A DNA stretch of 49,232 bases from Parafrankia sp. EUN1f (lineage in GTDB: Bacteria > Actinomycetota > Actinomycetes > Frankiales > Frankiaceae): NCBI RefSeq assembly GCF_000177675.1, contig NZ_ADGX01000058.1, positions 1 through 49,232 on the forward strand, read 5' to 3'. The position numbers and the translations under genes are program-made. Shown piece after piece: positions 4,796 to 35,618 of this stretch. Below the pieces are notes generated by a model. The model saw nothing but the letters and a program-made list of their open reading frames with translations, did no database searches and was not told the origin of the DNA. Position 1 is the stretch's first letter, and every line of letters starts with the position of its first letter.

Positions 4796-6406
4796 TCAGC
4801 GCGGCGCGCCCGTGGGGTGCCACCGGGCATGGCGGAACTCTGCTGGGTGCCCAGGAGCAGGGCGAGGTCCGCGCGCATGACCCGATTCTTCCCTACCCGC
4901 GGGGCGCGATCGTGCTCGCGACCCGGGCGGTCGGGCTGGGAGCAGCGGTCGAAGGGCCCGGCCGCGCAGCGCGCCGGCCCACAGCCCGGTGCCGTAGGCG
5001 AGGTCGTCGAGGCGGCGGGCGAGCAGGAACCTGGCCGGATCAAGCCGTGGGGTGCACCGGCGGTAGTCGACCATCCCGTCGACGACCGCGGCGGCCAGCA
5101 CGGCGCGGCGCAGGCGGCGGGAGACCAGGCAGCCGGCCAGGCTCAACGGCCACCAGTGACGCAGCAGCAGGCCGCTGGTCTGGCTGGCATTCGCGGCCAG
5201 TCCGTGGCGGGCGACACCAGGTGAGATCCCCGCGCGGGCGAGACGCACGGACTGGGCGGTGAGGATGGCCGCCGCGGCCGGCAGCGACCATCGTCGCTGG
5301 GCGAGCAGGGCGACGGCGACGCCCGCGCTCCACGGCGCGAAGACCGCAGGTGCCACCGCGTCGCCGTGCCGGCTGGCGAGGACGGTCGCTCCGGTGCCGT
5401 AGAACGCCTTGCGGCCCAGCCAGGCGGTGAGGCCGGTGCGGTGATCGTGCCGGGCGGTCACGGCGGGCTCGTGCCGCACCTGCCAGCCGGCGGCGGCCAG
5501 CCGCCAGACCAGGTCGACGTCCTCGGCGACCCGTTGGCCGTCGGTGAAGGTGAAACCGGCGCCGAGCGTGGCGACCCGGGCCATCAGGCACGCGGCGGGC
5601 ACCCAGCCGACCGCGGAGCGAGGATGCACCAGCGCGGCCACGGGGCCCATGTCGAGTGAGGAGCGGGCATCCTCGTAGCGCCCGATCCAGTTCGTGCCGC
5701 CCGGCTCGGCCAGACCGAGGACGCGGGGTGCCACGGCGGCGACCTGAGGCTGGTGGAAGTGGCGGGCCAGCATGGCGAGCGCCGCCGGCTCGACGACGAC
5801 ATCCGAGTCGACGAAGACGACCAGCGGTGTGGTCACCTGCGCGAGCCCGGCGTTGCGGGCCGTCGCCGGGCCGCGGTTGGCTGGCAGGGCGACGAGCTCC
5901 GCACCATGCCGGTCGGCCACCCGCGCGATGGGCGCCGGGTCACGTGAGCAGTCGTCGACGACGATCACCCTGAGCTGTCCGGCGAGGCCGGACAGCAGGC
6001 GGTCGAGCGGCCCGTCCCGGTCGCGGACCGGGACGACCACCGTGACCGCGGACAGCTCGGCCGGTGGCAGCTCGTCGAGCACCGGGTTCGCCACGCCGCT
6101 GGCGAGCAGCCGGTCGGCGAGCTGCGCGGACGTCGCGTCGACCACCCGCAGCCGGCGTCCGTCCAGGTAGCGTGCCGCGCGTTCGTTGAGGCGGAGCAGC
6201 CGCATCGGCGCACCGCCGACCAGCACCCGGCCGCCGTCGGAGACCCGGACGCGCTCCCCGAGCTCGACGACGAGCCCCAGGCCGACACCGGGATCCCTGT
6301 CGACACCGGTGCCAACGCCGGTACCGACACCAGTGCCAGTGCCAGTGCCAGTGCCAGTTCCAGTGCCAGTGCCAGTTCCAGTTCCAGTGCCGGTGCCGGT
6401 GCTCAT
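4796..6406 (-). CDS. mftF: Mycofactocin glycosyltransferase MftF
   Basis: 536 aa from the ATG at 6406, whose ATGA overlaps the stop of the upstream SDR. MftF is a family-2 glycosyltransferase that adds beta-1,4-glucose units to the mycofactocin core. Visible parts: an N-terminal MftF-type region (SDGGRVLVGGAPMRLLRL, about residues 55-75), a GT-A domain starting AVTVVVPVRDRDGPLDRLL, the strand-end VDDCSRD, the DxD-like VDSDVVVEP, the acceptor-side EDVDLVWRLAAAGW, then C-terminal hydrophobic helices. Odd: the first 36 residues are an almost pure Thr-Gly repeat encoded by a hexanucleotide array, probably a disordered and length-variable tail. The C-terminal 50 residues are Arg/Pro-rich. Confidence 0.9.
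   Translation of the reverse strand: MSTGTGTGTGTGTGTGTGTGTGTGTGVGTGVGTGVDRDPGVGLGLVVELGERVRVSDGGRVLVGGAPMRLLRLNERAARYLDGRRLRVVDATSAQLADRLLASGVANPVLDELPPAELSAVTVVVPVRDRDGPLDRLLSGLAGQLRVIVVDDCSRDPAPIARVADRHGAELVALPANRGPATARNAGLAQVTTPLVVFVDSDVVVEPAALAMLARHFHQPQVAAVAPRVLGLAEPGGTNWIGRYEDARSSLDMGPVAALVHPRSAVGWVPAACLMARVATLGAGFTFTDGQRVAEDVDLVWRLAAAGWQVRHEPAVTARHDHRTGLTAWLGRKAFYGTGATVLASRHGDAVAPAVFAPWSAGVAVALLAQRRWSLPAAAAILTAQSVRLARAGISPGVARHGLAANASQTSGLLLRHWWPLSLAGCLVSRRLRRAVLAAAVVDGMVDYRRCTPRLDPARFLLARRLDDLAYGTGLWAGALRGRALRPLLPARPPGSRARSRPAGREESGHARGPRPAPGHPAEFRHARWHPTGAPR
6302..6401 (-). repeat. Hexanucleotide (GGCACT-type) array encoding a Thr-Gly tail of MftF
   Basis: On the plus strand this reads as repeated CCAGTG/CCAGTT/CCGGTG hexamers, about 16 units, perfect in places and interrupted by TTCCAG variants. 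It is in frame and encodes (TG)n then (VG)n at the MftF N terminus. Because each unit adds two codons, slippage would change the length of the tail without breaking the frame. Confidence 0.9.
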
Positions 6407-7251
6407 CCGCGGAATCCGCCTTCGGCGCTGACGACGGAGCCGGTCAGCACCCCTCCGGCGACCGAACAGCAGAAGGCGATGGTCTCGGCGATCTCGCCGG
6501 GGTCGATCAGCCGGCCGGTGAGCTGCCCGGAGGCGAAGGACTCGACGCCGTCCAGGTCGTACAGCGCCGCGGTGGCGGCCAGCATCGCGGTGCGGGTCGA
6601 ACCGGGTGAGACCGCCACCGCGGTGACACCCGTACCGACGAGATCGGCGGCGAGGCCGCGGACGAGGCCGATGACGGCGTGCTTGGCCATGCTGTAACCG
6701 GCCAGGTGGAACAGCCCGCGGGTGCCGGCGGCGGAGGCGACGGCGGTGAAGCGACAACCGCCCGGGTCGGGCCCGGCCAGCATGTGCGGCACGCAGGCGG
6801 CGGCGGTGTTCCACACCCCCAGGACGTCGACATCCCACAGGGTCTGCACGTGCGTGGCCGGGGTCTCCCACAGCGGCTGGCCGCCGACCATCACGGCGGC
6901 GGCGGCGACCGCCGCGTCGAGACGGCCGAAACGCTCGACGGCCGTGGCCGCCGCCGCGTCGAGGGCGGCGCGGTCACGCACGTCGGCGAGCACGGTGTGG
7001 ATCTGGTCGGGGTGCGCGGCGCGCAGGGCCGCCAGCTGCTCGCGGCTCGCCAGCGGGTAGTCGACCCCGGGCAGGTCCGTGGCGGTGTCGCCGGCACCGC
7101 TGTCGACCGCGACGACCCGGTAGCCGCGCCGGCACAGGGCCCGGACGGTCTCGGCGCCGATTCCGCGGCCGGCGCCGGTGACCAGCGCGACCCGCCCGGT
7201 GTCGGGCGGTCCGGAGTCGACCCGCCCGGTGTCGGGCCGGTCGCCGCTCAC
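6403..7251 (-). CDS. Mycofactocin-coupled short-chain dehydrogenase/reductase
   Basis: 282-aa SDR starting at GTG 7251 (GTGA overlap with mftE) and overlapping mftF by ATGA. It has the Rossmann glycine motif TGAGRGIG (25-32), Ser in VASAAG (about 173) and the catalytic Tyr186/Lys190 (YSMAK). After the second beta strand it has an insertion containing YPLASREQL (65-73), as in mycofactocin-dependent SDRs (usual form YPLATPEDL); that loop is thought to lock NAD in place, so reoxidation needs mycofactocin. The NNAG motif is replaced by an Ala run (AAVAAAAV). Its place between mftE and mftF and its overlaps say it is made with the cofactor. Substrate, probably an alcohol, unknown. The N terminus holds a duplicated PDTGRV from a 20-bp direct repeat (7188-7207, 7218-7237). 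Confidence 0.9.
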   Translation of the reverse strand: MSGDRPDTGRVDSGPPDTGRVALVTGAGRGIGAETVRALCRRGYRVVAVDSGAGDTATDLPGVDYPLASREQLAALRAAHPDQIHTVLADVRDRAALDAAAATAVERFGRLDAAVAAAAVMVGGQPLWETPATHVQTLWDVDVLGVWNTAAACVPHMLAGPDPGGCRFTAVASAAGTRGLFHLAGYSMAKHAVIGLVRGLAADLVGTGVTAVAVSPGSTRTAMLAATAALYDLDGVESFASGQLTGRLIDPGEIAETIAFCCSVAGGVLTGSVVSAEGGFRG

Positions 7252-8093
7252 GGCTGACGCTCCGCGGTCAGCCGAGGACGCAGCCGGCCGTGCTGGTCCG
7301 GTTCGCCGTGGTCGATGAGGGCGGACACGTTCTCGATGATTGCCCGCAGCAGTTCCTCGCCGGCCCGGGCGCTGGCCGCGGTCGGGTCACCGAGCACGCC
7401 GGACGGCGCTACGGCCGCCACCCCGCCGGCGGCGATGGCGGGCATCAGCTCGGCAAGCGGGGCGGTGTTGCCGGGCTGGGCCCGGCGCATCCGCACCTGT
7501 TCCGGCGCCAGGTGCAGCATGAGGGACGTCTCGGTGAACCCGGCATGTGAATCGGTCGCCGCGTCGCGGCCGGCGTCGTCGTGCCCGGCGTCGTCGTGCC
7601 CGGCACTGCCGCGGCTGGCACTGTCGCGACCGGCACCGCTGGCGAGCCAGGCCACGTCGTGGCCTTCGTGGCGCAGCTGGCTGACGGCCTCGGCGAGTCC
7701 GCGCAGGTTGCCGCCGTGCGCGTTGACGAACACGATCGGTCCGCTCCAGTCCCGCATCGAGCGGACCAGCTCGACCAGCAGCAGCCGCAGCGCCTGCGTG
7801 CCGATGGACATCGTGCCCGGAAACCCCTGGTGCTCCCCGCTGGCCGTGTAGATGACCGGCGGGGCGACCAGCACCGGCACGGCGGCGCCGTGCTGGCGCA
7901 GGTGCTGATGCTGGCGCAGGTGCTCGGCCGCGCCTTCGGCCACCGCCACCGCGATCGTGGTGTCGGTGGTCAACGGCAGGTGCGGCCCGTGCTGTTCGCA
8001 GGAGCCCACCGGGACCAGCACCAGCGGCGCCGTCGGCACGGCGGGCCACGCCCGCGCCGCCAGCGCCACCGGCGCTCCCGATGGCATCGTCAC
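7248..8093 (-). CDS. mftE: Mycofactocin precursor peptide peptidase MftE
   Basis: 281 aa from GTG 8093 (GTGA overlap with the mftD stop); an ATG at 8087 is the alternative. This creatininase-fold metalloprotease releases the modified C-terminal dipeptide from MftA. Metal-site motifs are present: EQHGPHLP (33-40), the acidic TTDTTIA that follows, NAHGGN (124-129) and FTETS (186-190). Between residues about 152 and 180 there is a hydrophilic insertion with GHDDAGHDDAG, encoded by an exact 15-bp duplication (7571-7600). It lies next to the DSHAGFTETS motif, so it is a loop addition near the active site; I do not know it from other MftE proteins. Length otherwise fits the family (about 240-260). 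Confidence 0.92.
   Translation of the reverse strand: MTMPSGAPVALAARAWPAVPTAPLVLVPVGSCEQHGPHLPLTTDTTIAVAVAEGAAEHLRQHQHLRQHGAAVPVLVAPPVIYTASGEHQGFPGTMSIGTQALRLLLVELVRSMRDWSGPIVFVNAHGGNLRGLAEAVSQLRHEGHDVAWLASGAGRDSASRGSAGHDDAGHDDAGRDAATDSHAGFTETSLMLHLAPEQVRMRRAQPGNTAPLAELMPAIAAGGVAAVAPSGVLGDPTAASARAGEELLRAIIENVSALIDHGEPDQHGRLRPRLTAERQP
7571..7600 (-). repeat. 15-bp duplication inside mftE
   Basis: CGGCGTCGTCGTGCC occurs twice back to back (7571-7585 and 7586-7600), giving a repeated Gly-His-Asp-Asp-Ala pentapeptide in the low-complexity loop of MftE. Confidence 0.9.
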
Positions 8094-9382
8094 TGCGCCG
8101 GCACCGACACCGGCTCTGGCGCGGACACCGACTCCGCTGCGGGCACCGGCTCTGGCGCGGACACCGACTCCGCTGCGGGCACCGACTCCGGCGACGATGT
8201 CGGCGCGGGCACGACGCCGAGCGTGCGGGAGAAGCCGCTGGGGATCAGGACGTCGTCCGGGGTCAGGTCGTGGATGGACGAGTGGCCGAGCGCGAGTAGC
8301 GCCGAGTCGATCCCGTTGCGCAGGACGTCCAGGACGTTCTCCACGCCGGCCTGCCCGTTCGCGGCCAGGGCCCACAGGTAGGCGCGGCCGATCATGACGG
8401 CCCGTGCGCCGAGCGCCAGGGCCTTCACGACGTCACCGCCGCGGCGGATGCCGCTGTCCATCACCACTTCGATGTCCCCGCCGACGGCCTCGACGACCGC
8501 GCGCAGGGCACGGATCGGGGCCGGGGTGCTGTCGAGGTTGTTGCCGCCGTGGTTGGAGACGGAGATCGCGCTGACACCGGCGTCGCGGGCACGCAGGGCG
8601 TCGTCCACCCGGCTGACGCCCTTGAGCATGAACGGCCCATCCCACTGCTGGCGCAGCCAGGCGATGTCGTCCCAGCTCGGCGGGGGTGTCTGCATCCATT
8701 CGCCGTAGGCGCCGAAGAAGGTGGGCACCGGCTGGCCGGGTTCGGCCAGGTTCGGCACCGACAGGTCGGGGAGCTTGCCGGTGCGCAGGTAGCTCGCCAG
8801 CCAGGCCGGCCGGGACAGGCCCTGCGGAGCCATCTTCACCATGGTCAACAGGTCGAGCCGTTCGGGGATCCAGGGGCTGCCCCAGTCGCGGCTGTGCGAG
8901 AACGACCAGTCGAGGGTCACGATGAGGCCGACCGCGCCGCCCTCGCGGGCGCGTTCGAGCCGGCGGACCATCGACTCCCGGGTGCCCATCCAGTAGATCT
9001 GGAAGAACGTGCGCGGGTTGGCGGCGACGACGTCCGCCAGCGGCTTGCTGGCGAACGAGCTCAGGCCCATCGCGGTGCCGCGGGCCGCGGCGGCCCGGGC
9101 GACGGCGACCTCCCCGTCGGGGTGGACGGCCTGGACACCGGTCGGGGAGATGATGACCGGCAGCGAGATCTCCTGGCCGAGGACGGTCGTCGCCAGCTCA
9201 CGCTTTTCCTTCAGCCCGGCCACGTGCGGGGCGAAACCGAGCTCGTCGAACGCGCCGGTGTTGTCGCGGTAGGTCACACCGGCTTCCGAACCGGCCAGCA
9301 GTGCGCTGTACACCGATTTCGGGAGCCGGCGCTGCGCGCGCCGCTGCGCTTCGGCGACTGATTCGAACCAAGCGTTACCCAT
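8090..9382 (-). CDS. mftD: Mycofactocin FMN-dependent oxidoreductase MftD
   Basis: 430 aa, ATG at 9382 with a GGTGGAGC box. MftD belongs to the L-lactate dehydrogenase/glycolate oxidase FMN family; in mycofactocin synthesis it oxidatively deaminates the AHDP intermediate to the redox-active pre-mycofactocin. FMN-barrel features are in order: LPVIISPTGVQ (74-84), LKG (253-255), SNHGGNNLD with the catalytic His (276-284), DSGIRRGGD (309-317) and IGRAYLWALA (331-340). The family normally ends near residue 395; here a further 35 residues rich in Pro, Ala, Glu and Ser are encoded by an exact 36-bp tandem duplication. It lies 31 nt after mftC and overlaps mftE. Confidence 0.93.
   Translation of the reverse strand: MGNAWFESVAEAQRRAQRRLPKSVYSALLAGSEAGVTYRDNTGAFDELGFAPHVAGLKEKRELATTVLGQEISLPVIISPTGVQAVHPDGEVAVARAAAARGTAMGLSSFASKPLADVVAANPRTFFQIYWMGTRESMVRRLERAREGGAVGLIVTLDWSFSHSRDWGSPWIPERLDLLTMVKMAPQGLSRPAWLASYLRTGKLPDLSVPNLAEPGQPVPTFFGAYGEWMQTPPPSWDDIAWLRQQWDGPFMLKGVSRVDDALRARDAGVSAISVSNHGGNNLDSTPAPIRALRAVVEAVGGDIEVVMDSGIRRGGDVVKALALGARAVMIGRAYLWALAANGQAGVENVLDVLRNGIDSALLALGHSSIHDLTPDDVLIPSGFSRTLGVVPAPTSSPESVPAAESVSAPEPVPAAESVSAPEPVSVPAQ
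8109..8180 (-). repeat. 36-bp tandem duplication at the 3' end of mftD
   Basis: Two exact 36-bp units (8109-8144, 8145-8180) plus partial flanking units. In frame they encode the duplicated AAESVSAPEPVP tail of MftD, ending about 20 bp before the stop codon. Confidence 0.92.
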
Positions 9383-9413
9383 GCTCCACCTTCTTGAATG
9401 TCCTGCCGGTGCT

Positions 9414-10697
9414 TCAGCGCGCCGGGGTGAATCCCGCCAGCGGGTTCTCGGCGCACGCGGAGACCGGCGGAGCCGCCGGAGCCGCCGGAGCCGCCGGGGT
9501 GGCCGCGTCCGGCCGGGTGCCGAGCTGGAGCAGCACCGGCTCGCGCCGTCCGGCGGGTTCCCGCCGGTGCGAGTGGTCGAGGCTCAGTGCCGGGACGGTC
9601 CGCTGCGGGTCGGCCAGCGCGGCCTGCCCGTAACCCTGGACGCATTCGGGATCCGGCCCGTCCAGGGGCAGGCCGGTGAAGAACTTCGCCGCCATGCAGC
9701 CGCCGCGGCACACGTCGTAGTGCTGGCACGCCGAACAGGCCCCGCCGCCCTGCGGTTCGCGCAGCCGGCCGAACAGCTCACTGGTTCGCCACACCTGGGC
9801 GAAACCGCCGTCGGTGACGATGTTCCCGGCACGGAACGTCTCGTGGATCGTGAATGGGCAGGCGTAGACGTCGCCGACCGGGTCGATGAGGCAGACCACT
9901 CGCCCCGCCCCGCACAGGTTCAGCCCGGGCAGTTTCTCGCCGAAGCCGGCGAGGTGGAAGAAGGAGTCGCCGGTGAGCACCTTCTCGCCGGCCCGTACCA
10001 GCCATTCGTAGAGGTCACGCTGCTGGTCGTGGGTGGGATGGAGCTCGTCCCACACGTCCGCGCCGCGCCCCGACGGGCGCAGCCGGGTGAGCCGCAGGGT
10101 CGCGCCGTGATCGTCCGCGATGCGCTTGAACTCGTCGAGCTGGTCGACGTTGTGCCGGGTGACGACAACCGAGATCTTCGCGTCCCGGAAACCGGCGGTG
10201 GTCAGGTTGTCCAGCGCCCGCAGCGCCATCGCGTACGAGCCCTCGCCGCGAACCTGGTCGTTCACCGCCGCGGTGGCGCCGTCGAGGGAGACCTGGACAT
10301 CCACGTAGTCGGTCGAGGCGAGGTAGCGGGCCCGAGCGGCGTCGATCCGCACGCCGTTGGTGGAGAACTTCACCCCGACCTGGTGGTTGACGGCGTATTC
10401 GAGCAGGTGCCAGAAGTCGGGGCGCACGGTCGGCTCGCCGCCGCCGACGTTGACGTAGAAGACCTGCATCGCCTGCAGCTCGTCGATGATCGACTCGCAC
10501 TGCTCGGTGCTGAGCTCCCGCGGGTCACGCCGGCCGGACGCCGACAGGCAGTGCACGCACGACAGGTTGCAGGCGTACGTCAGTTCCCAGGTCAGGCAGA
10601 TCGGTGCGGCCAGGCCGCGTTCGAACCGCGCCACCAGCGGCATCGCCCGCTCGGTCGCCGCGAGCCCGGTGCTCGCGGGCTCGGTCAGGAGGGTCAT
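9414..10697 (-). CDS. mftC: Mycofactocin radical SAM maturase MftC
   Basis: 427 aa from the ATG at 10697 (ATGA overlap with mftB). MftC uses radical SAM chemistry to decarboxylate the C-terminal Tyr of MftA and join it to the preceding Val. The cluster-binding CxxxCxxC is CNLSCVHC (Cys 43, 47, 50), and the SAM motif GGGEPT is at 85-90. A SPASM domain follows with Cys 262, 269, 280, 321, 324, 330, 334 and 352, enough for the two auxiliary 4Fe-4S clusters. After about residue 360 there is a variable tail with Ala-Ala-Pro repeats, encoded by 9-bp GAGCCGCCG repeats at 9468-9498. Upstream in-frame codons beyond 10697 would run into mftB and have no ribosome-binding site. Confidence 0.95.
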   Translation of the reverse strand: MTLLTEPASTGLAATERAMPLVARFERGLAAPICLTWELTYACNLSCVHCLSASGRRDPRELSTEQCESIIDELQAMQVFYVNVGGGEPTVRPDFWHLLEYAVNHQVGVKFSTNGVRIDAARARYLASTDYVDVQVSLDGATAAVNDQVRGEGSYAMALRALDNLTTAGFRDAKISVVVTRHNVDQLDEFKRIADDHGATLRLTRLRPSGRGADVWDELHPTHDQQRDLYEWLVRAGEKVLTGDSFFHLAGFGEKLPGLNLCGAGRVVCLIDPVGDVYACPFTIHETFRAGNIVTDGGFAQVWRTSELFGRLREPQGGGACSACQHYDVCRGGCMAAKFFTGLPLDGPDPECVQGYGQAALADPQRTVPALSLDHSHRREPAGRREPVLLQLGTRPDAATPAAPAAPAAPPVSACAENPLAGFTPAR

Positions 10698-11023
10698 CCG
10701 GGTTCTCCCTGTTCTCCCGCTGGCTGTTCCGCGGCTGGCTGTCGGGGACGGATCACGTCGGCGTCGGCCAGCCCGCGCAGCGCGGCGGCGAACGACGCCC
10801 ACTGTTCGGCGGGGACACCGGCTCGGCGCAGGGCGGTGCGGGCGTCGGGCGCGTCGCCGAGGCCTCGCACCACCTCGACCAGCTCCCTGCGCTTCAGGAA
10901 GATCAGGCGGCGGTTGCCGAAGTGGTACGCGAGCGCCCCGAACGACTCGGGGCGCAGCGCAACGGACCGGGACAGCTCCCAGGCCGCGTCGAGGGTTTGG
11001 TCCTCGAGGGTGTCAGTAGACAC
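10694..11023 (-). CDS. mftB: Mycofactocin peptide chaperone MftB
   Basis: 109 aa starting at GTG 11023, inside the last codons of mftA (11-bp overlap). MftB has a PqqD-like winged-helix fold (RiPP recognition element) that binds MftA and hands it to MftC. The recognisable core is the ALRPESFGALAYHFGNRRL stretch (22-40) followed by FLKRRELVEVVRGL; the C terminus (after about residue 95) is a short Gln/Glu/Pro tail. The overlap with both neighbours implies translational coupling, fitting a 1:1 complex role. Confidence 0.93.
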   Translation of the reverse strand: MSTDTLEDQTLDAAWELSRSVALRPESFGALAYHFGNRRLIFLKRRELVEVVRGLGDAPDARTALRRAGVPAEQWASFAAALRGLADADVIRPRQPAAEQPAGEQGEPG

Positions 11024-29751: not shown

Positions 29752-30504
29752 TCAGGTGTTGCGGCCGCCGTTGACGCCGATGACCTGCCCGGTGATGTAG
29801 CCGGCCTCCTCGGAGATGAGGAAGGACGCGGCGGCGGCGATGTCCTCGGGCTTGCCGGGGCGCCGGACGGGGGTCAGGTCGGCGTGCTTGTCGACGCTTC
29901 CGCCGAGCAGGCCGCGCTCCTCGGACGCCCGCAGCATCGGGGTGTCGACGAAGCCCGGCGGAATCGTGTTGACCGTGATCCCCTTCGGGCCGAGCTCGAG
30001 GGCGAGCGACTTGGTCATGCCGATCAGGCCGGCCTTGGTCGACACGTAGTGCACCATGTACTGCTGCCCGGACTGGGCGCTGGACGACGAGATGTTGACG
30101 ATCCGCCCCCAGCCCGCCTCGATCATGTCCGGCACGGCGTTCTGGGTGCAGTAGAGCGGCCCGCTGAGGTTCACCGCGACGATCCGGTCCCAGACCGGGT
30201 CGGTGATCTTCAGGAACTCCTTGAAACCGGTGATCCCGGCGTTGTTGACGAGGACGAGGATGGGGCCGTAGGTCTCGCGCACCTTCTCGAGCGCGGCGTC
30301 GACCTTCGCGCGGTCGGAGACGTCGACAGCGAACGCGGTGGCCTCGCCGCCCTTCTGGCGGGCCTCCTCGGCCACGACCTGGGCGGCCTCCTCGTTGAGG
30401 TCGAGTACGGCGGTCGCGAAACCGTCCTCGGCCAGCCGGAGGCTGATGGCGCGCCCGATGCCCGAGCCACCCCCGGTGACGACTGCCGTGCGTCGTTCGG
30501 TCAC
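29752..30504 (-). CDS. Short-chain dehydrogenase/reductase
   Basis: 250 aa, the classical SDR length. Motifs: TGGGSGIG, Asp ending strand two (AVLDLNEEA, favouring NAD), DVSDR, NNAGI, Ser in ISSSSAQS, catalytic YVSTK, and VNGGRNT at the end. Similar to 3-oxoacyl-ACP/2,3-dihydro-diol-type dehydrogenases, so it might act on a product of the oxygenases encoded upstream on the same strand. It lies 112 bp after the TauD-type gene, probably as the last member of the same transcription unit. Confidence 0.92.
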   Translation of the reverse strand: MTERRTAVVTGGGSGIGRAISLRLAEDGFATAVLDLNEEAAQVVAEEARQKGGEATAFAVDVSDRAKVDAALEKVRETYGPILVLVNNAGITGFKEFLKITDPVWDRIVAVNLSGPLYCTQNAVPDMIEAGWGRIVNISSSSAQSGQQYMVHYVSTKAGLIGMTKSLALELGPKGITVNTIPPGFVDTPMLRASEERGLLGGSVDKHADLTPVRRPGKPEDIAAAASFLISEEAGYITGQVIGVNGGRNT

Positions 30505-30616: not shown

Positions 30617-31450
30617 TTACGCGACGGGCTCCTCGCCGGCCAGTGATGCGCGGTGCATAAGCCTGGAGGACGTCGGTCCGTAGGGCAGGGCCCGGTGCAG
30701 CATCCCGGTGTTGTCCCAGATCACCAGATCGCCCTGGGTCCAGCGGTGCCGGAGGACGAACTGCGGCTGGGTCGCCCAGTCCAGCAGGCGGTCGAGCAGC
30801 GCCCGGCCCTCGTCCGCGGGCAGGCCGACGACCTCGCCCGCCGTCGACCCGACCAGCAGCGACTTACGCCCGTTGCGGCGGGTCCACACCACCGGCTGCT
30901 CCCGGGTCGGGTTGCGGTCCCAGGCCGCCCGCTCCTCGGGCGAGGGGTCAGGGTTGGCCACGAGCTGGGAGGCGGTGAAGCTGTGCAGGGCGCGCACACC
31001 CTCCAGCGAGGCCTTGTCCTCGTCGGACAGGGCCTCGTACGCAGCGTAGGTGTTGGCGAACTCGGTGTCGCCCTCCGTGCTCCCCGAGATCTGGCGCGCC
31101 GTGAGCAGCGTGGCCTTGTCCGGCACCTCGCCGGTGGTCCCGTCGATGTGCCAGTAGAACGTGGCCTCGCGGTACGCCGCCAGTTTGCTCTGCGACGCGT
31201 CGCGGGTGATCCGCTGGATCTCCTTGAGCCGGTGGCCGCCCATCGGCAGCGGCAGGACATCTCCGAGCAGCCGGCCGAAGGCGACCAGGCTCTCGTCGTC
31301 GATGTCGGCCTCCCGGAAGACGACGACGCCGCTCTCCTCCAGAGCAGCGAGGGCGTCCGCGGCGACGCCCTTGTCGACGAGCTGGGTGCCCGTCAGCCCG
31401 CTGAACTCCGTCCCGGTGTTCGGGGTGATCTTCCTTGTGGTGATGCCCAT
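30617..31450 (-). CDS. TauD/TfdA-family Fe(II)/2-oxoglutarate dioxygenase
   Basis: 277 aa. Iron ligands: HxD in WHIDGT (His101, Asp103) and the distal His in GMLHRALPYGP (about 254); the Arg that binds 2-oxoglutarate is in SRLMHRASL near the C terminus. It hydroxylates an unactivated carbon using oxygen and 2-oxoglutarate, releasing CO2 and succinate. It is co-directional with, and 13 bp after, a 114-aa gene that itself follows the Rieske oxygenase by 14 bp, so the three are almost certainly one operon. Two different oxygenases side by side suggest successive hydroxylations of one substrate. Confidence 0.92.
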   Translation of the reverse strand: MGITTRKITPNTGTEFSGLTGTQLVDKGVAADALAALEESGVVVFREADIDDESLVAFGRLLGDVLPLPMGGHRLKEIQRITRDASQSKLAAYREATFYWHIDGTTGEVPDKATLLTARQISGSTEGDTEFANTYAAYEALSDEDKASLEGVRALHSFTASQLVANPDPSPEERAAWDRNPTREQPVVWTRRNGRKSLLVGSTAGEVVGLPADEGRALLDRLLDWATQPQFVLRHRWTQGDLVIWDNTGMLHRALPYGPTSSRLMHRASLAGEEPVA

Positions 31451-31463
31451 GGCGGTCGCCTTC

Positions 31464-31808
31464 TCAGAGGGCCGGTTCGACGGCGGTGTCGAAGTAGGCG
31501 GCGCCCGAGTCCGGGATCCGCGGCTGCTTGAAGATGTTGACCGGGTAGGACGTCATGATCATCGAATAGAGCAGGTGGAGCAGGCGGGTGTCCTGGTCGG
31601 ACAGGGCGTGCACGTCGCGGGTGTCGAGGTAGGCGATCGCGTCCTCGGCGAGTGGGGCGATCGCGTCGTAGAACGCCTGGAGCTCGTCGATGGTCTTGGA
31701 CAGCCGCTTCTGATAGCGCTCTTCGCGGGTGGCCAGGGCCCAGTCGGTGACCCAGGGCTCGAGGGCGCGGAACGGCTCGGGCAGCAGTCCCGTGGCAGTG
31801 GTGGTCAT
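31464..31808 (-). CDS. Unrecognised 114-aa protein between Rieske and TauD-type oxygenase genes
   Basis: 114 aa from ATG 31808, with AAAGGA about 10 nt upstream. I do not recognise a family. It is soluble and mostly helical: PEPFRALEPWVTDWALATRE, then KRLSKTIDELQAFYDAIAPL, then LLHLLYSMIMTSYPVNIFKQ, ending in a loop with PRIPDSGAAYF. It has no Cys, so no metal-sulfur site, and it does not look like the NTF2-fold beta subunit of ring-hydroxylating oxygenases. The tight packing (14 bp from the Rieske gene, 13 bp to the TauD-type gene) says it works with one of them, as a small subunit, a stabiliser or a carrier. Function open. Confidence 0.75.
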   Translation of the reverse strand: MTTTATGLLPEPFRALEPWVTDWALATREERYQKRLSKTIDELQAFYDAIAPLAEDAIAYLDTRDVHALSDQDTRLLHLLYSMIMTSYPVNIFKQPRIPDSGAAYFDTAVEPAL

Positions 31809-31822
31809 GGTCCCGGGGTCCT

Positions 31823-33118
31823 TTACTTCTCGCTGCCGGCCTGGTGCGCCGCGACGGCGTCCCGGACGACCTTGTGGAACTGGCGGATCATCAGTTCCAT
31901 GTCGGACAGGTGGAACGTCTGCAGCGCCCGGTTGTTGAGTTGTGACCAGGTCGCCTCGACCGTGTTCGTGTCCTGCATCGCGAACTCGATGGTGCTGTCG
32001 ACGACGAGTTCCTGCGCGAGCCGTTCGGAGGCGGTCCTCGGCTCGGGGAAGTAGATGTCGACCTCGTAGGCGTGGGTGCCGACCGTTTCCGGGATGTACT
32101 GGTAGGTGATGTAGTAGCCGCGGCCCCAGAGCTGGATCGACAGGTTCGGGAACAGCCAGTACTGGTCGTTGCTCCAGGCGCGGATCCCGCCCGGGTTGCG
32201 GTCGTCGGTGAGGTGGCCGAGGTCGGTGCGGATGTCGTCCGGGCCGAACAGGCCGGCGCGGAACAGCCGGTAGGCCCAGTTCATGTCGCGGGCGGCGGGG
32301 CCGACCGAGCCGGTCTTCTTCTTCAGGACGGGCGGGCCGGGTACCGAGGTCAGCATGTGCGGGGTGAACAGGTCGTAGTGGTAGGAGTCCATCGGCGGAA
32401 CGAGCTTCTCCGCCTCGGCCACGTTGGTGTTGAGGAACCGGCCATGGACGTATGCCGGGTGGTACCACTCCAGCAGCGCGTCGATGCCGATCTTCCAGTT
32501 GCCCTTGACCTTGGTCCGGAAGGACCAGTGGTTCGTGAACTTCTCGAACGGCCAGCTCTCCAGCTCGGCGGTCAGCTTCTCGCCGAGGAACTCACGCAGC
32601 GGCGGGGCGTCGGTGCTGAAGTTCACGAAGATGAACCCGGCGAAGACCTCGCAGCGCAGCTGCGGCATGGCGAGCTGGTCGTCGGGCAGCGACTCGAAGA
32701 ACTCGTCGCGCTTGGTGACGTAGCTGCACTTGCCGTCGAGGCCGTAGCGCCAGCCGTGGTATTTGCAGGCGAACTGCCGTGCGGTGCCCTGTGTCTCGTT
32801 GGTCGGGTGTTCCTGCCAGACGACCTTGTTCCCGCGGTGCGCGCAGATGTTGTGCAGCGCGTACACCTGTCCGTCGGTGTGCCGGGTGATCACGATGGAT
32901 CCCAGGCCGACGAGCTCGCGGGTGAAGAACGTGCCGTTACGTGGCAGTTGTTCGACCCTGCCGACCTTCAGCCAGGTCCGCTTGAAGATCGCTTCGCGCT
33001 CGGCCTGGAAGAACTCCTCGGAGATCGAGTCCTCATAGGACACCGGGCCGGTGTCGAGATCCGGATACCCCGGCGTGTACTTGCCACGGCCGGTCGCGAG
33101 TCGCTCCTGAATGGCCAT
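31823..33118 (-). CDS. Rieske non-haem iron oxygenase, alpha subunit
   Basis: 431 aa from ATG 33118, about 9 nt after GAGAGGGG; a TTG at 33127 is in frame. The Rieske 2Fe-2S ligands are CAHRGN (Cys92, His94) and CKYHGW (Cys118, His121). The mononuclear iron site shows GIDALLEWYHPAYVHG with His220 and His225; the usual Asn/Glu bridge positions vary (Asp213, Glu217). The length and the single-subunit context (no NTF2-like beta subunit or ferredoxin next to it) suggest an alpha-only oxygenase that takes electrons from partners encoded elsewhere. The substrate is probably an aromatic or alicyclic acid or amine. First gene of the Rieske / 114-aa / TauD operon. Confidence 0.93.
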   Translation of the reverse strand: MAIQERLATGRGKYTPGYPDLDTGPVSYEDSISEEFFQAEREAIFKRTWLKVGRVEQLPRNGTFFTRELVGLGSIVITRHTDGQVYALHNICAHRGNKVVWQEHPTNETQGTARQFACKYHGWRYGLDGKCSYVTKRDEFFESLPDDQLAMPQLRCEVFAGFIFVNFSTDAPPLREFLGEKLTAELESWPFEKFTNHWSFRTKVKGNWKIGIDALLEWYHPAYVHGRFLNTNVAEAEKLVPPMDSYHYDLFTPHMLTSVPGPPVLKKKTGSVGPAARDMNWAYRLFRAGLFGPDDIRTDLGHLTDDRNPGGIRAWSNDQYWLFPNLSIQLWGRGYYITYQYIPETVGTHAYEVDIYFPEPRTASERLAQELVVDSTIEFAMQDTNTVEATWSQLNNRALQTFHLSDMELMIRQFHKVVRDAVAAHQAGSEK

Positions 33119-33220: not shown

Positions 33221-34411
33221 TCAGATCACGCCGTCGGCGCGTAGCTGGCTGATCTCGGCCGGCTCTCGCCGGAGCAGCTCGGTGAGCACGGCGTCGGTGT
33301 GCGCCCCGAGCTCCGGCCCGAGCCAGCGGATCTCGCCCGGTGTGTCGGAGAGAGCGGGGATGACACCGGGCACGGCGAGTGGGCCGATGCGGGACTCCTC
33401 GACGGTGATGGTCTGCCGGTGCCGATACTGCGGATCATCGAAGATGTCGGCAATGGAGTAGAGCTGCCCGGCTGGGACCTGGGCCTGGCGGCACCGGGCC
33501 AGCACCTCCTCGCAGGGCAGCGAGCCGACCCATTCGCCCACCAGCGAGTTGACCAGGCCGCGGGCGGCGAGCCGGTTCGCCTTCGGGCCGAGCTGGTCGG
33601 CGTCGGCGAGCTCCGGCCGCTCCATGGCCCGGGCCAGCCGGGCGAACATGTCGTCGTTGGAGCAGGCGATCGCGATCCAGTGGTCGTCCTTGGTCTGGTA
33701 ATGGCTGTGCGGCAGCACGTTCACGGTGTCGGCGCCCATCCGCTCCCGGACGAAACCGAACTGCTGGTAGGCGGGCGCGATCTCGTCGAGTGCCCGGAAG
33801 ACCGACTCGTAGAGTGCCAGGTCGACGACCTGGCCCTTCCCGGTGCTCTCCCGTGCCCGCAGCGCCATCAGCACGCCGATGACCCCGTACAGCCCGGTCA
33901 TGTAGTCGGCGAGTGAGGTGGAACCGGGGGTCACCGGGGGCCCGTCCGGCATGCCGGCGAGGTAGGCGAGGCCGGAGAAGGCGTGCGCGATCCGGGCGAA
34001 GCCGGGGAGTTCCCGGTTCGGCCCCGACTGCCCGTAGGCCGAGACCCGCAGCAGCACCGCCCGCGGGTTCAGTTCGGCTATCTCCTCCGGGCCGAGCCCC
34101 CACCGCTCCATGACCCCGGGCCGGAAGTTCTCGATCACGACATCCACCGTCGTGATGAGCTCGCGGAGGATCTCGATGCCGCGGGGGTCGGCGAGGTTGA
34201 GCGTCACCGACCGCTTGTTGCGGCTCTCGCTGAGCCAGACCAGGGTGTCGCCGCAGTCCGTCTCGGTGCCGAACCGGCGCAGGTTGTCGCCCGTCCGTGG
34301 GCGCTCGACCTTGATGACGTCGGCGCCGAACTCACCCAGCACCGTGGCGCAGAACGGCCCGGCGAGGTAGGTGCCCAGATCGAGAACTCTCAGGCCCTGC
34401 AGTGCATGCAT
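33221..34411 (-). CDS. CaiB/BaiF-type CoA transferase (family III)
   Basis: 396 aa from ATG 34411 (MHALQGLRVLDLG), with CGGGAG upstream. The family III nucleophile Asp is at 169 in SLADYMTGLYG, the same number as in formyl-CoA transferase; CoA-binding VIKVERPRTGD and NKRSVTLNL are present. It moves CoA between organic acids, activating a catabolic substrate without ATP. It ends 102 bp before the Rieske gene and may be transcribed with it. Divergent from the LLM oxidoreductase gene across 229 bp. Confidence 0.93.
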   Translation of the reverse strand: MHALQGLRVLDLGTYLAGPFCATVLGEFGADVIKVERPRTGDNLRRFGTETDCGDTLVWLSESRNKRSVTLNLADPRGIEILRELITTVDVVIENFRPGVMERWGLGPEEIAELNPRAVLLRVSAYGQSGPNRELPGFARIAHAFSGLAYLAGMPDGPPVTPGSTSLADYMTGLYGVIGVLMALRARESTGKGQVVDLALYESVFRALDEIAPAYQQFGFVRERMGADTVNVLPHSHYQTKDDHWIAIACSNDDMFARLARAMERPELADADQLGPKANRLAARGLVNSLVGEWVGSLPCEEVLARCRQAQVPAGQLYSIADIFDDPQYRHRQTITVEESRIGPLAVPGVIPALSDTPGEIRWLGPELGAHTDAVLTELLRREPAEISQLRADGVI

Positions 34412-34640: not shown

Positions 34641-35618
34641 GTGACGAACGAGCGACCCTTCCGCTTCGCGGTCCAGGCCACGAAGGCGAAGTCGGCTGCC
34701 GAGTGGCGCGACCTGGCTCATCGGGTTGAGGATCTTGGGTTCTCCACCCTCTTCCTCGCCGACCACTACCTGGGGCCGGGGCCGGCGCAGCGCGAGGCCA
34801 GGTGGCCACCGCAGTACCTCGCTCCCATCGCGGCCATGGCCACCGCGGCCGCGGTGACGACCACCCTGCGCGTGGGTTGTCGGGTCTTCTGCGTCGACTA
34901 CCACGTGCCTGCCGTCCTCGCGAAGGAGGCGGCGACGATCGACCTGCTCTCCGACGGGCGCCTCGAGTTCGGTATCGGGGCGGGCTGGAGCGAGCCCGAG
35001 TACCGGGCCATGGGCGTGCCCTTCGACGCGCCGCCACACCGGATCAGCAAGCTCGCCGAGGCGGTCGCGTTGTTCAAGGCCCACTGGTCCGGGGAGGCCC
35101 TCGATCAGAAGGGCGAGTTCGTCAACGTCACGGGCTACGCGGGGCTGCCACTGCCGGTGCAGCGCCCGCACCCACCGATCATGATCGGTGGCGGCCGCCG
35201 GCGGGTGCTTTCCCTCGCCGGGCGTGAGGCCGACATCGTCAGCATCTCCAACGTGCCGTTCGTCCCGGTGAACTCCGACGGCCTGACGCCCGCCGAGGAG
35301 GCGGTGCGCCGGGTGGGGTATGTGCGGGACGCCGCGGGGGAGCGCTTCGGCGGCATCGACATCGAGAGCTCGCCGTTCTTCACCCGGGTGACCAAGGATG
35401 CCGAAGAGGCCGCGCAGGCCCTCGCCCGGGTCGCGGCGACGATGCAGGTCGACGCGGGCAGCCTGATGCGGCATCCGAACGTGCTGGTGGGGTCCGTCGA
35501 CGAGATCGTCGAGCGGCTACAGGAGCGTCGCGAGGCATTCGGGGTGAACTACGTCAGCATCCAGCAGTCGGAGGTCGGCGCCTTCGCCTCCGTGGTCGAG
35601 CAGCTGACCGGCCGGTGA
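34641..35618 (+). CDS. LLM-class (probably F420-dependent) oxidoreductase
   Basis: 325 aa from GTG 34641. Luciferase-like TIM barrel: FRFAVQATKAKSAAEWRDLA start, FLADHYLGPG, ATIDLLSDGRLEFGIGAGW and the late HPPIMIGGGRRRVLSLAGRE. This combination is typical of actinobacterial F420 enzymes of about 300-325 aa; F420 versus FMN cannot be settled from sequence by eye. No ribosome-binding site stands out and an inverted repeat abuts the start, so the transcript may be leaderless or nearly so. Probably a hydride-transfer step in the surrounding catabolism. Confidence 0.9.
   Translation: MTNERPFRFAVQATKAKSAAEWRDLAHRVEDLGFSTLFLADHYLGPGPAQREARWPPQYLAPIAAMATAAAVTTTLRVGCRVFCVDYHVPAVLAKEAATIDLLSDGRLEFGIGAGWSEPEYRAMGVPFDAPPHRISKLAEAVALFKAHWSGEALDQKGEFVNVTGYAGLPLPVQRPHPPIMIGGGRRRVLSLAGREADIVSISNVPFVPVNSDGLTPAEEAVRRVGYVRDAAGERFGGIDIESSPFFTRVTKDAEEAAQALARVAATMQVDAGSLMRHPNVLVGSVDEIVERLQERREAFGVNYVSIQQSEVGAFASVVEQLTGR

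Follow-up and report, generated by a model that had tools for sequence, protein, structure and literature searches.

The small helical protein encoded between a Rieske oxygenase and a TauD-type oxygenase in Parafrankia sp. EUN1f accompanies a single branch of Rieske oxygenase alpha subunits, and it is probably a lasting accessory subunit of the alpha protein beside which it is encoded. The window, by which we mean the whole stretch of 49,232 nucleotides that was analyzed (NZ_ADGX01000058.1), is a single contig of a 9.35-Mb genome. Three minus-strand genes make up the core of the locus: the Rieske oxygenase alpha subunit (431 amino acids; positions 31823 to 33118), which matches PF00355 (58.5 bits) and PF00848 (90 bits), both above cut-off; the small protein (114 amino acids; 31464 to 31808), which contains no cysteine; and a TauD/TfdA 2-oxoglutarate Fe(II) oxygenase (277 amino acids; 30617 to 31450; PF02668, 196.6 bits, likewise well above cut-off). 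As an earlier note on this DNA had described, all three are intact open reading frames, and their coordinates give gaps of 14 bp between the alpha and small genes and 13 bp between the small and TauD genes. Conserved neighbors are a class III CoA-transferase (CaiB/BaiF) upstream (33221 to 34411, minus strand, with its start set at the methionine at residue 51 of the predicted ORF), an SDR dehydrogenase downstream (29752 to 30504, minus strand), and a divergent F420-dependent LLM oxidoreductase (34641 to 35618, plus strand; TIGR03621). The order CaiB, alpha, small, TauD, and SDR, together with the divergent LLM oxidoreductase, is kept in all seven Frankiaceae orthologue loci examined. The nearest named relatives within the Frankiaceae, two Parafrankia strains and Frankia sp. 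EI5c, encode alpha subunits that are 93 to 95% identical to that of the window. Elsewhere in the window, a mycofactocin cluster (4796 to 10799, minus strand) encodes MftF, a mycofactocin-coupled SDR, MftE, MftD, and the radical SAM protein MftC, each of the five scoring above its own NCBIfam cut-off; the cluster may serve dehydrogenases of the surrounding catabolic region.

No Pfam or NCBIfam profile names the small protein, either as a known unrelated family or otherwise, which agrees with the initial view that it belongs to no recognized family. A Pfam search with the window protein returned DUF2710 (PF10921) as its sole line (E value, 0.07; 14 bits against a cut-off of 29.6), NCBIfam returned no line at an E value of 1, and Pfam gave no line for seven divergent members. 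Membership in DUF2710 was rejected because the score falls below the cut-off and the line is present in just 1 of the 25 family members of alignment A1. It was judged to be a chance match, as were the VPDSG-CTERM, HHA, and BT4734-like lines, each seen in one or two of the 25 members with a best E value of 0.024. Sequence matches in the PDB were likewise attributed to chance (best E values of 0.069 for the window protein and 0.98 for the family profile).

Members of the family nevertheless share a clear pattern of conservation. The window genome itself holds four copies of the small gene, the other three being 49 to 53% identical and each lying directly 3′ of an alpha gene. When 25 diverse members are aligned together, W23, R31, and R35 are invariant, while L9, P10, F13, L16, F46, A49, and L76 are kept in at least 90%. 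Conservation is equal in the C-terminal tail and the core (mean top-residue share of 0.62 for both). The tail carries a motif that resembles QPRVPDSGA and, at its end, an EP. The protein had been described at the outset as free of cysteine, which is true of the window copy and does not extend to the family, since 61 of the 85 different members possess at least one cysteine (range, 0 to 4). No column is conserved as cysteine, which speaks against a redox role, and neither cysteine nor histidine reaches 80% conservation at any position. The family has no cofactor motif, and no carrier motif was recognized in it.

The small gene is linked to an alpha gene almost wherever it was found. The first scan of the genome collection yielded 25 small-gene loci, and in the first set of 29 loci the small gene comes immediately after alpha in 28; in the single exception (L017), only 29 bp of contig sequence precede the ATG of the small gene. 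With two more genome searches and five plasmids added, the count became 90 of 91 loci, a figure that includes repeats of the same place. In a set of 40 genomes, made up of the window genome and 39 relatives, 14 genomes together hold 47 copies, each of them no more than 1 kb 3′ of an alpha gene, so the small gene is not one that occurs mostly without either oxygenase. Larger draws of genomes gave a patchy distribution. The small gene is present in 37 of 201 genomes drawn from the family of genome G026, and an alpha gene was found upstream in all 29 newly opened loci among the many places listed for that draw, the alpha match being shorter in three. It is also present in at least 13 of 396 genomes drawn across the phylum, with at most 12 candidates scored per genome. 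A draw of 398 Pseudomonadota genomes around G433 found it in at least one, the center itself, which is a weak negative as at most 11 candidates per genome were scored in the first pass. Such patchiness (37 of 201 and at least 13 of 396) identifies the small gene as an accessory trait rather than a universal one. No in-frame fusion of the alpha and small genes occurs among the 91 loci. One record titled as a Bifidobacterium breve metagenome-assembled genome (L015) carries the pair, and its host label is doubtful for such genes.

The same linkage extends to plasmids. A tblastn search of plasmid records identified the small gene in 16 records at identities down to 27% (18 places matched; one per record was opened). 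The hosts include Sphingomonas, Novosphingobium, Sphingobium, Acinetobacter, Cupriavidus, Variovorax, Burkholderia, Paroceanicella, and one Rhodococcus; the family thus spans the Actinomycetota and the Pseudomonadota, with the plasmids mostly from the latter. Alpha adjoins the small gene in 15 of the 16 records, in one of which (L034) it is split into two frames. In the 16th, Cupriavidus necator C39 (L133, 8736 to 9276), the small gene stands directly after a C-terminal remnant of alpha that corresponds to positions 395 to 423 of the 429-position alpha profile. The small gene precedes alpha in four of the 16 records (L122, L123, L126, and L130). Since both gene orders occur, the bond between the two genes survives rearrangement, which makes operon inertia a harder explanation for it. 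A plasmid search with alpha matched 127 records, of which 40 were listed; among the rows inspected (H17 to H30, H31, and H33), the best 14 alpha places (H17 to H30) all have an adjoining small gene, and the two weaker ones (H31 and H33) have none alongside. The product of the small gene is annotated as "hypothetical protein" in the 12 opened plasmid records that carry annotation. The small gene of Azospirillum (L137), one of those beside the best 14 alphas, was caught solely by a broader profile. The Rhodococcus plasmid locus (L031) includes a VanB-type reductase of its own.

Viewed from the alpha subunit, the association is nearly confined to one branch. Scored against the window alpha, the alphas of the 40 genomes separate into a group of 56 (at least 320 bits) and a group of 60 (at most 152 bits), and the small gene follows 46 of the 56 alphas of the window's branch compared with 1 of the 60 others. 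A tree of 95 alphas placed the 86 with a small gene in one group, which also includes five without. This group as a whole has support of 91/84 with only four alphas outside it, and long branches lead to the Pseudomonadota rows, which leaves its exact shape unsure. The five small-less alphas (L116 to L120) form a single nested clade with support of 100/99, which reads as a single loss; for this clade the small protein is dispensable. In total, 10 alphas of the branch do without the small gene; for five of them, the most sensitive search did not find it in their 4.2-kb loci. These 10 are the main fact against the small protein being indispensable, and small-less alphas are also the natural comparison for what the subunit does.

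The alpha subunit itself appears fully equipped. Residues C92, H94, C118, H121, H220, H225, and D383, and likewise E217, are conserved in at least 99% (rounded) of 79 aligned alphas. We take the first four to be the ligands of the Rieske cluster and H220, H225, and D383 to be the iron site, by comparison with naphthalene dioxygenase and CntA; E217 is presumably the acid at the bridging position, where CntA has a glutamate as well. With its catalytic residues complete, alpha has no absent catalytic part for the small protein to mend. The alphas of two distant hosts (L011 and L066) end in near-identical tails, RISAVS and QISAVS, which could perhaps be a contact for the small protein.

Structure predictions were made for the small protein alone and joined to alpha. 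Modeled alone, the window protein is a helical bundle (helices at residues 11 to 23, 28 to 36, 40 to 62, and 71 to 84) with no strand. Block means are 88 to 97 over residues 11 to 80 and drop to 65, 53, 50, and 46 from residue 81. Disorder in isolation combined with core-like conservation is the pattern expected if the tail becomes ordered on contact with a partner. The alpha and small genes are in frame in 7 of 85 different pairs, and joined chains were produced by reading the stop between them as a residue; five of the seven were usable, and two (L025 and L026) were left out because of unreadable bases. After removal of near-duplicates, 54 alphas and 72 small proteins were kept, of which 44 and 60, the five joined chains included, make up alignment A4; this alignment is without plasmid loci, and L005 was left out of both A2 and A4 due to N in its DNA.

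The read-through chain of one relative (L057; 555 residues, 99-row alignment) was predicted with a mean pLDDT of 89.1 and a pTM of 0.90. The linker is disordered (block means of 39 and 57), while the small part has block means of 95 to 98 over residues 451 to 530 and of 92, 89, and 84 in the tail. A strand at residues 548 to 551 is the only one in the small part of the model; because strands form in pairs and this part contains no second one, it must pair with alpha in this prediction. By our own reasoning, a pTM of about 0.77, equal to alpha's share of the chain, would be expected if alpha alone were placed confidently. The docking model is one without a control, as the lone model was built for the window protein from 24 rows and the joined model for L057 from 99 rows; it treats alpha as a monomer rather than a trimer and does not name the contact residues. 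Its linker keeps the two parts close to each other, which does not in itself produce a confident interface. Foldseek returned 15 matches for the small protein alone at E values of ≤10, none at ≤0.001, and the best VIA match had a Z score of 3.4; such a lack of fold matches does not show that the fold is new. The alpha part of the L057 model has its best VIA match in CntA (6Y8J; Z score, 28.5; rmsd, 2.0; 321 aligned) and also matches terephthalate and naphthalene dioxygenases.

The model of this relative suggests that the helical core of the small protein (residues about 10 to 85) would dock on the alpha subunit and that the conserved C-terminal tail (about 86 to 114) would be clamped to it through an added short beta strand. 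The small protein would then most likely stabilize the oxygenase and shape the substrate tunnel or the reductase docking site, the kind of support that is attributed to beta subunits elsewhere among Rieske oxygenases. Linkage by itself does not prove binding; the role and the stoichiometry are what we infer from the observed family, linkage, catalytic residues, and absence of PF00866 within 5 kb, taken with the predicted docking. A new kind of oxygenase subunit, one of the two roles first considered for the protein, is thus the best reading and a likely one, tied to alpha by linkage.

A special form of this reading, in which each small protein takes the place of one beta subunit and occupies its site on alpha, seems possible but on balance unlikely. 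The beta subunit (PF00866), which has an alpha+beta cystatin-like fold, is likewise small, cofactor-free, and encoded beside alpha, whereas the small-protein model is helical with no strand, and the PF00866 profile fails to match, with no line at an E value of 1 for the window protein, the 25 members of A1, or the seven divergent members. Replacement would fit the distribution of PF00866, which matches in 22 of the 40 genomes (above the cut-off in 20) and lies within 5 kb of none of the 47 small genes compared with 8 of the 60 other alphas, contig ends limiting the view in both counts; the closest match to any small gene is 7.8 kb away and below the family cut-off. On the other hand, a SnoaL-type protein, not PF00866, also stands near the alpha-small pair in three Pseudomonadota operons, and CntA, the nearest solved fold to alpha, is listed as an alpha3 enzyme without a second subunit in the table of a 2025 review (PMC12445004), so that no beta site need exist on alpha.

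We regard as rather improbable that the small protein is an assembly chaperone, which would help alpha to fold or to load its iron or [2Fe-2S] cluster and then leave. The strict tie to one alpha branch, the lack of a cofactor motif, and the small size would all suit such a role, and the phenol hydroxylase factor DmpK is a precedent for a dedicated chaperone. However, the predicted strand-addition clamp, in the L057 model without a control, suggests a lasting contact, and metal or cluster loading finds no counterpart in a cysteine or histidine conserved in 80% of members.

The third gene of the trio, TauD, is a frequent yet optional neighbor. The window TauD is intact and has H101, D103, and H252, which we take to be the TauD facial triad (HxD...H iron site). 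Its best sequence match among solved structures is 2,4-dichlorophenoxyacetate dioxygenase (5BKE; E value, 3.8e-34); unlike that enzyme, it is encoded in a Rieske operon. A TauD gene on the same strand lies within 300 bp of 18 of the 47 small genes, compared with approximately 0.025 expected by chance, an expectation calculated from the 62 TauD rows kept (rows of <150 bits were dropped) with distances limited by contig ends. The remaining 29 have none within 300 bp, as far as contig ends allow the view; TauD is near the small gene in 2 of the 29 further loci of the G026 family draw, and no TauD match was found in the plasmid small-gene loci. TauD-linked copies occupy at least two places in the alpha tree, namely, the window's Frankiaceae orthologues and a clade containing copies of family f4 and L004, another alpha/small paralogue of the window genome. 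Among the loci of the G026 family draw, L148 unites alpha, small, and TauD at scores that resemble those of the window's type. The three-gene set, sought in other genomes as the earlier note had advised, is therefore a recurrent arrangement, and its TauD member is optional. In one of the seven Frankiaceae orthologue loci, that of Pseudofrankia sp. BMG5.36 (L008, 6340 to 6604), the middle of TauD is missing from a sequence that contains no N, and the neighboring alpha and small genes are intact; an assembly fault is a possible cause of the deletion. In another genome (G001:C146, 9827 to 10416), the TauD match is in two pieces and immediately follows an alpha without a small gene.

These counts bear on the proposal that the small protein joins the two oxygenases, which did not hold, as the bond is with the Rieske alpha. 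The related suggestion that substrate passes between the Rieske enzyme and TauD by way of the small protein, as a carrier or a channel, is very unlikely. The conserved order of alpha, small, and TauD and the excess of nearby TauD genes over chance would be compatible with a carrier, but no observation speaks for that role as such: most copies have no TauD close by, the plasmid loci gave no match, the broken TauD of Pseudofrankia accompanies an intact pair, and a carrier motif is not recognized. Hardly credible is a mere operon passenger with no part in the oxygenase, since a gene found in two phyla, in both orders, and nearly exclusively with one alpha branch does not behave as one, even if 10 of 56 branch alphas lack it and the link to alpha is known here from genes and models. 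With the small protein read as an accessory subunit of alpha, the best reading of TauD is another enzyme of alpha's pathway. The CoA-transferase and SDR in the operon make it look like one for catabolism of a compound, perhaps CoA-linked, and we infer that TauD, the CoA-transferase, and the SDR would work on one compound together with the Rieske enzyme, at steps that precede or follow its own.

The solved Rieske oxygenases tabulated in the 2025 review are of alpha3, alpha3beta3, alpha3alpha′3, and alpha3alpha3 forms only, and the review text gives these as the most common forms (PMC12445004). NdmA/NdmB (alpha3-alpha′3) and PDO (alpha3-alpha3) are likewise alternative quaternary designs, made, unlike the pair described here, of alpha-type chains only (PMC12445004). 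An evenly balanced proposition is that a further architecture exists, in which alpha3 is joined by a helical non-beta subunit in unrelated pathways of the Actinomycetota and the Pseudomonadota; this subunit would tune substrate access or electron delivery, with TauD coupled to it for two successive oxidations in the Frankiaceae and some other actinobacteria. The statement that no system of this composition has been described was borne out in the open-access literature, in which we found neither such a system nor a helical small Rieske oxygenase subunit; subscription papers and preprints were outside the scope of the search, so a description may exist there. If true, a helical subunit might explain failed lone expression of alphas of this branch, would provide a handle on uncharacterized Rieske enzymes annotated with an adjoining "hypothetical protein," and would allow a direct test of what noncatalytic Rieske subunits do.

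For the Acinetobacter operon, no paper was found that ties its gene set to work on indole or skatole. The operons of Paroceanicella (L128) and Azospirillum (L137) are alike, with alpha, the small gene, two cupins, an NTF2/SnoaL-type protein, a ferredoxin, and an asparaginase. In Variovorax sp. WDL1 (L129, 2206 to 7291), alpha and the small gene are followed by genes for a 2,5-dihydroxypyridine dioxygenase and an isochorismatase-family enzyme, a set hinting at a pyridine pathway.
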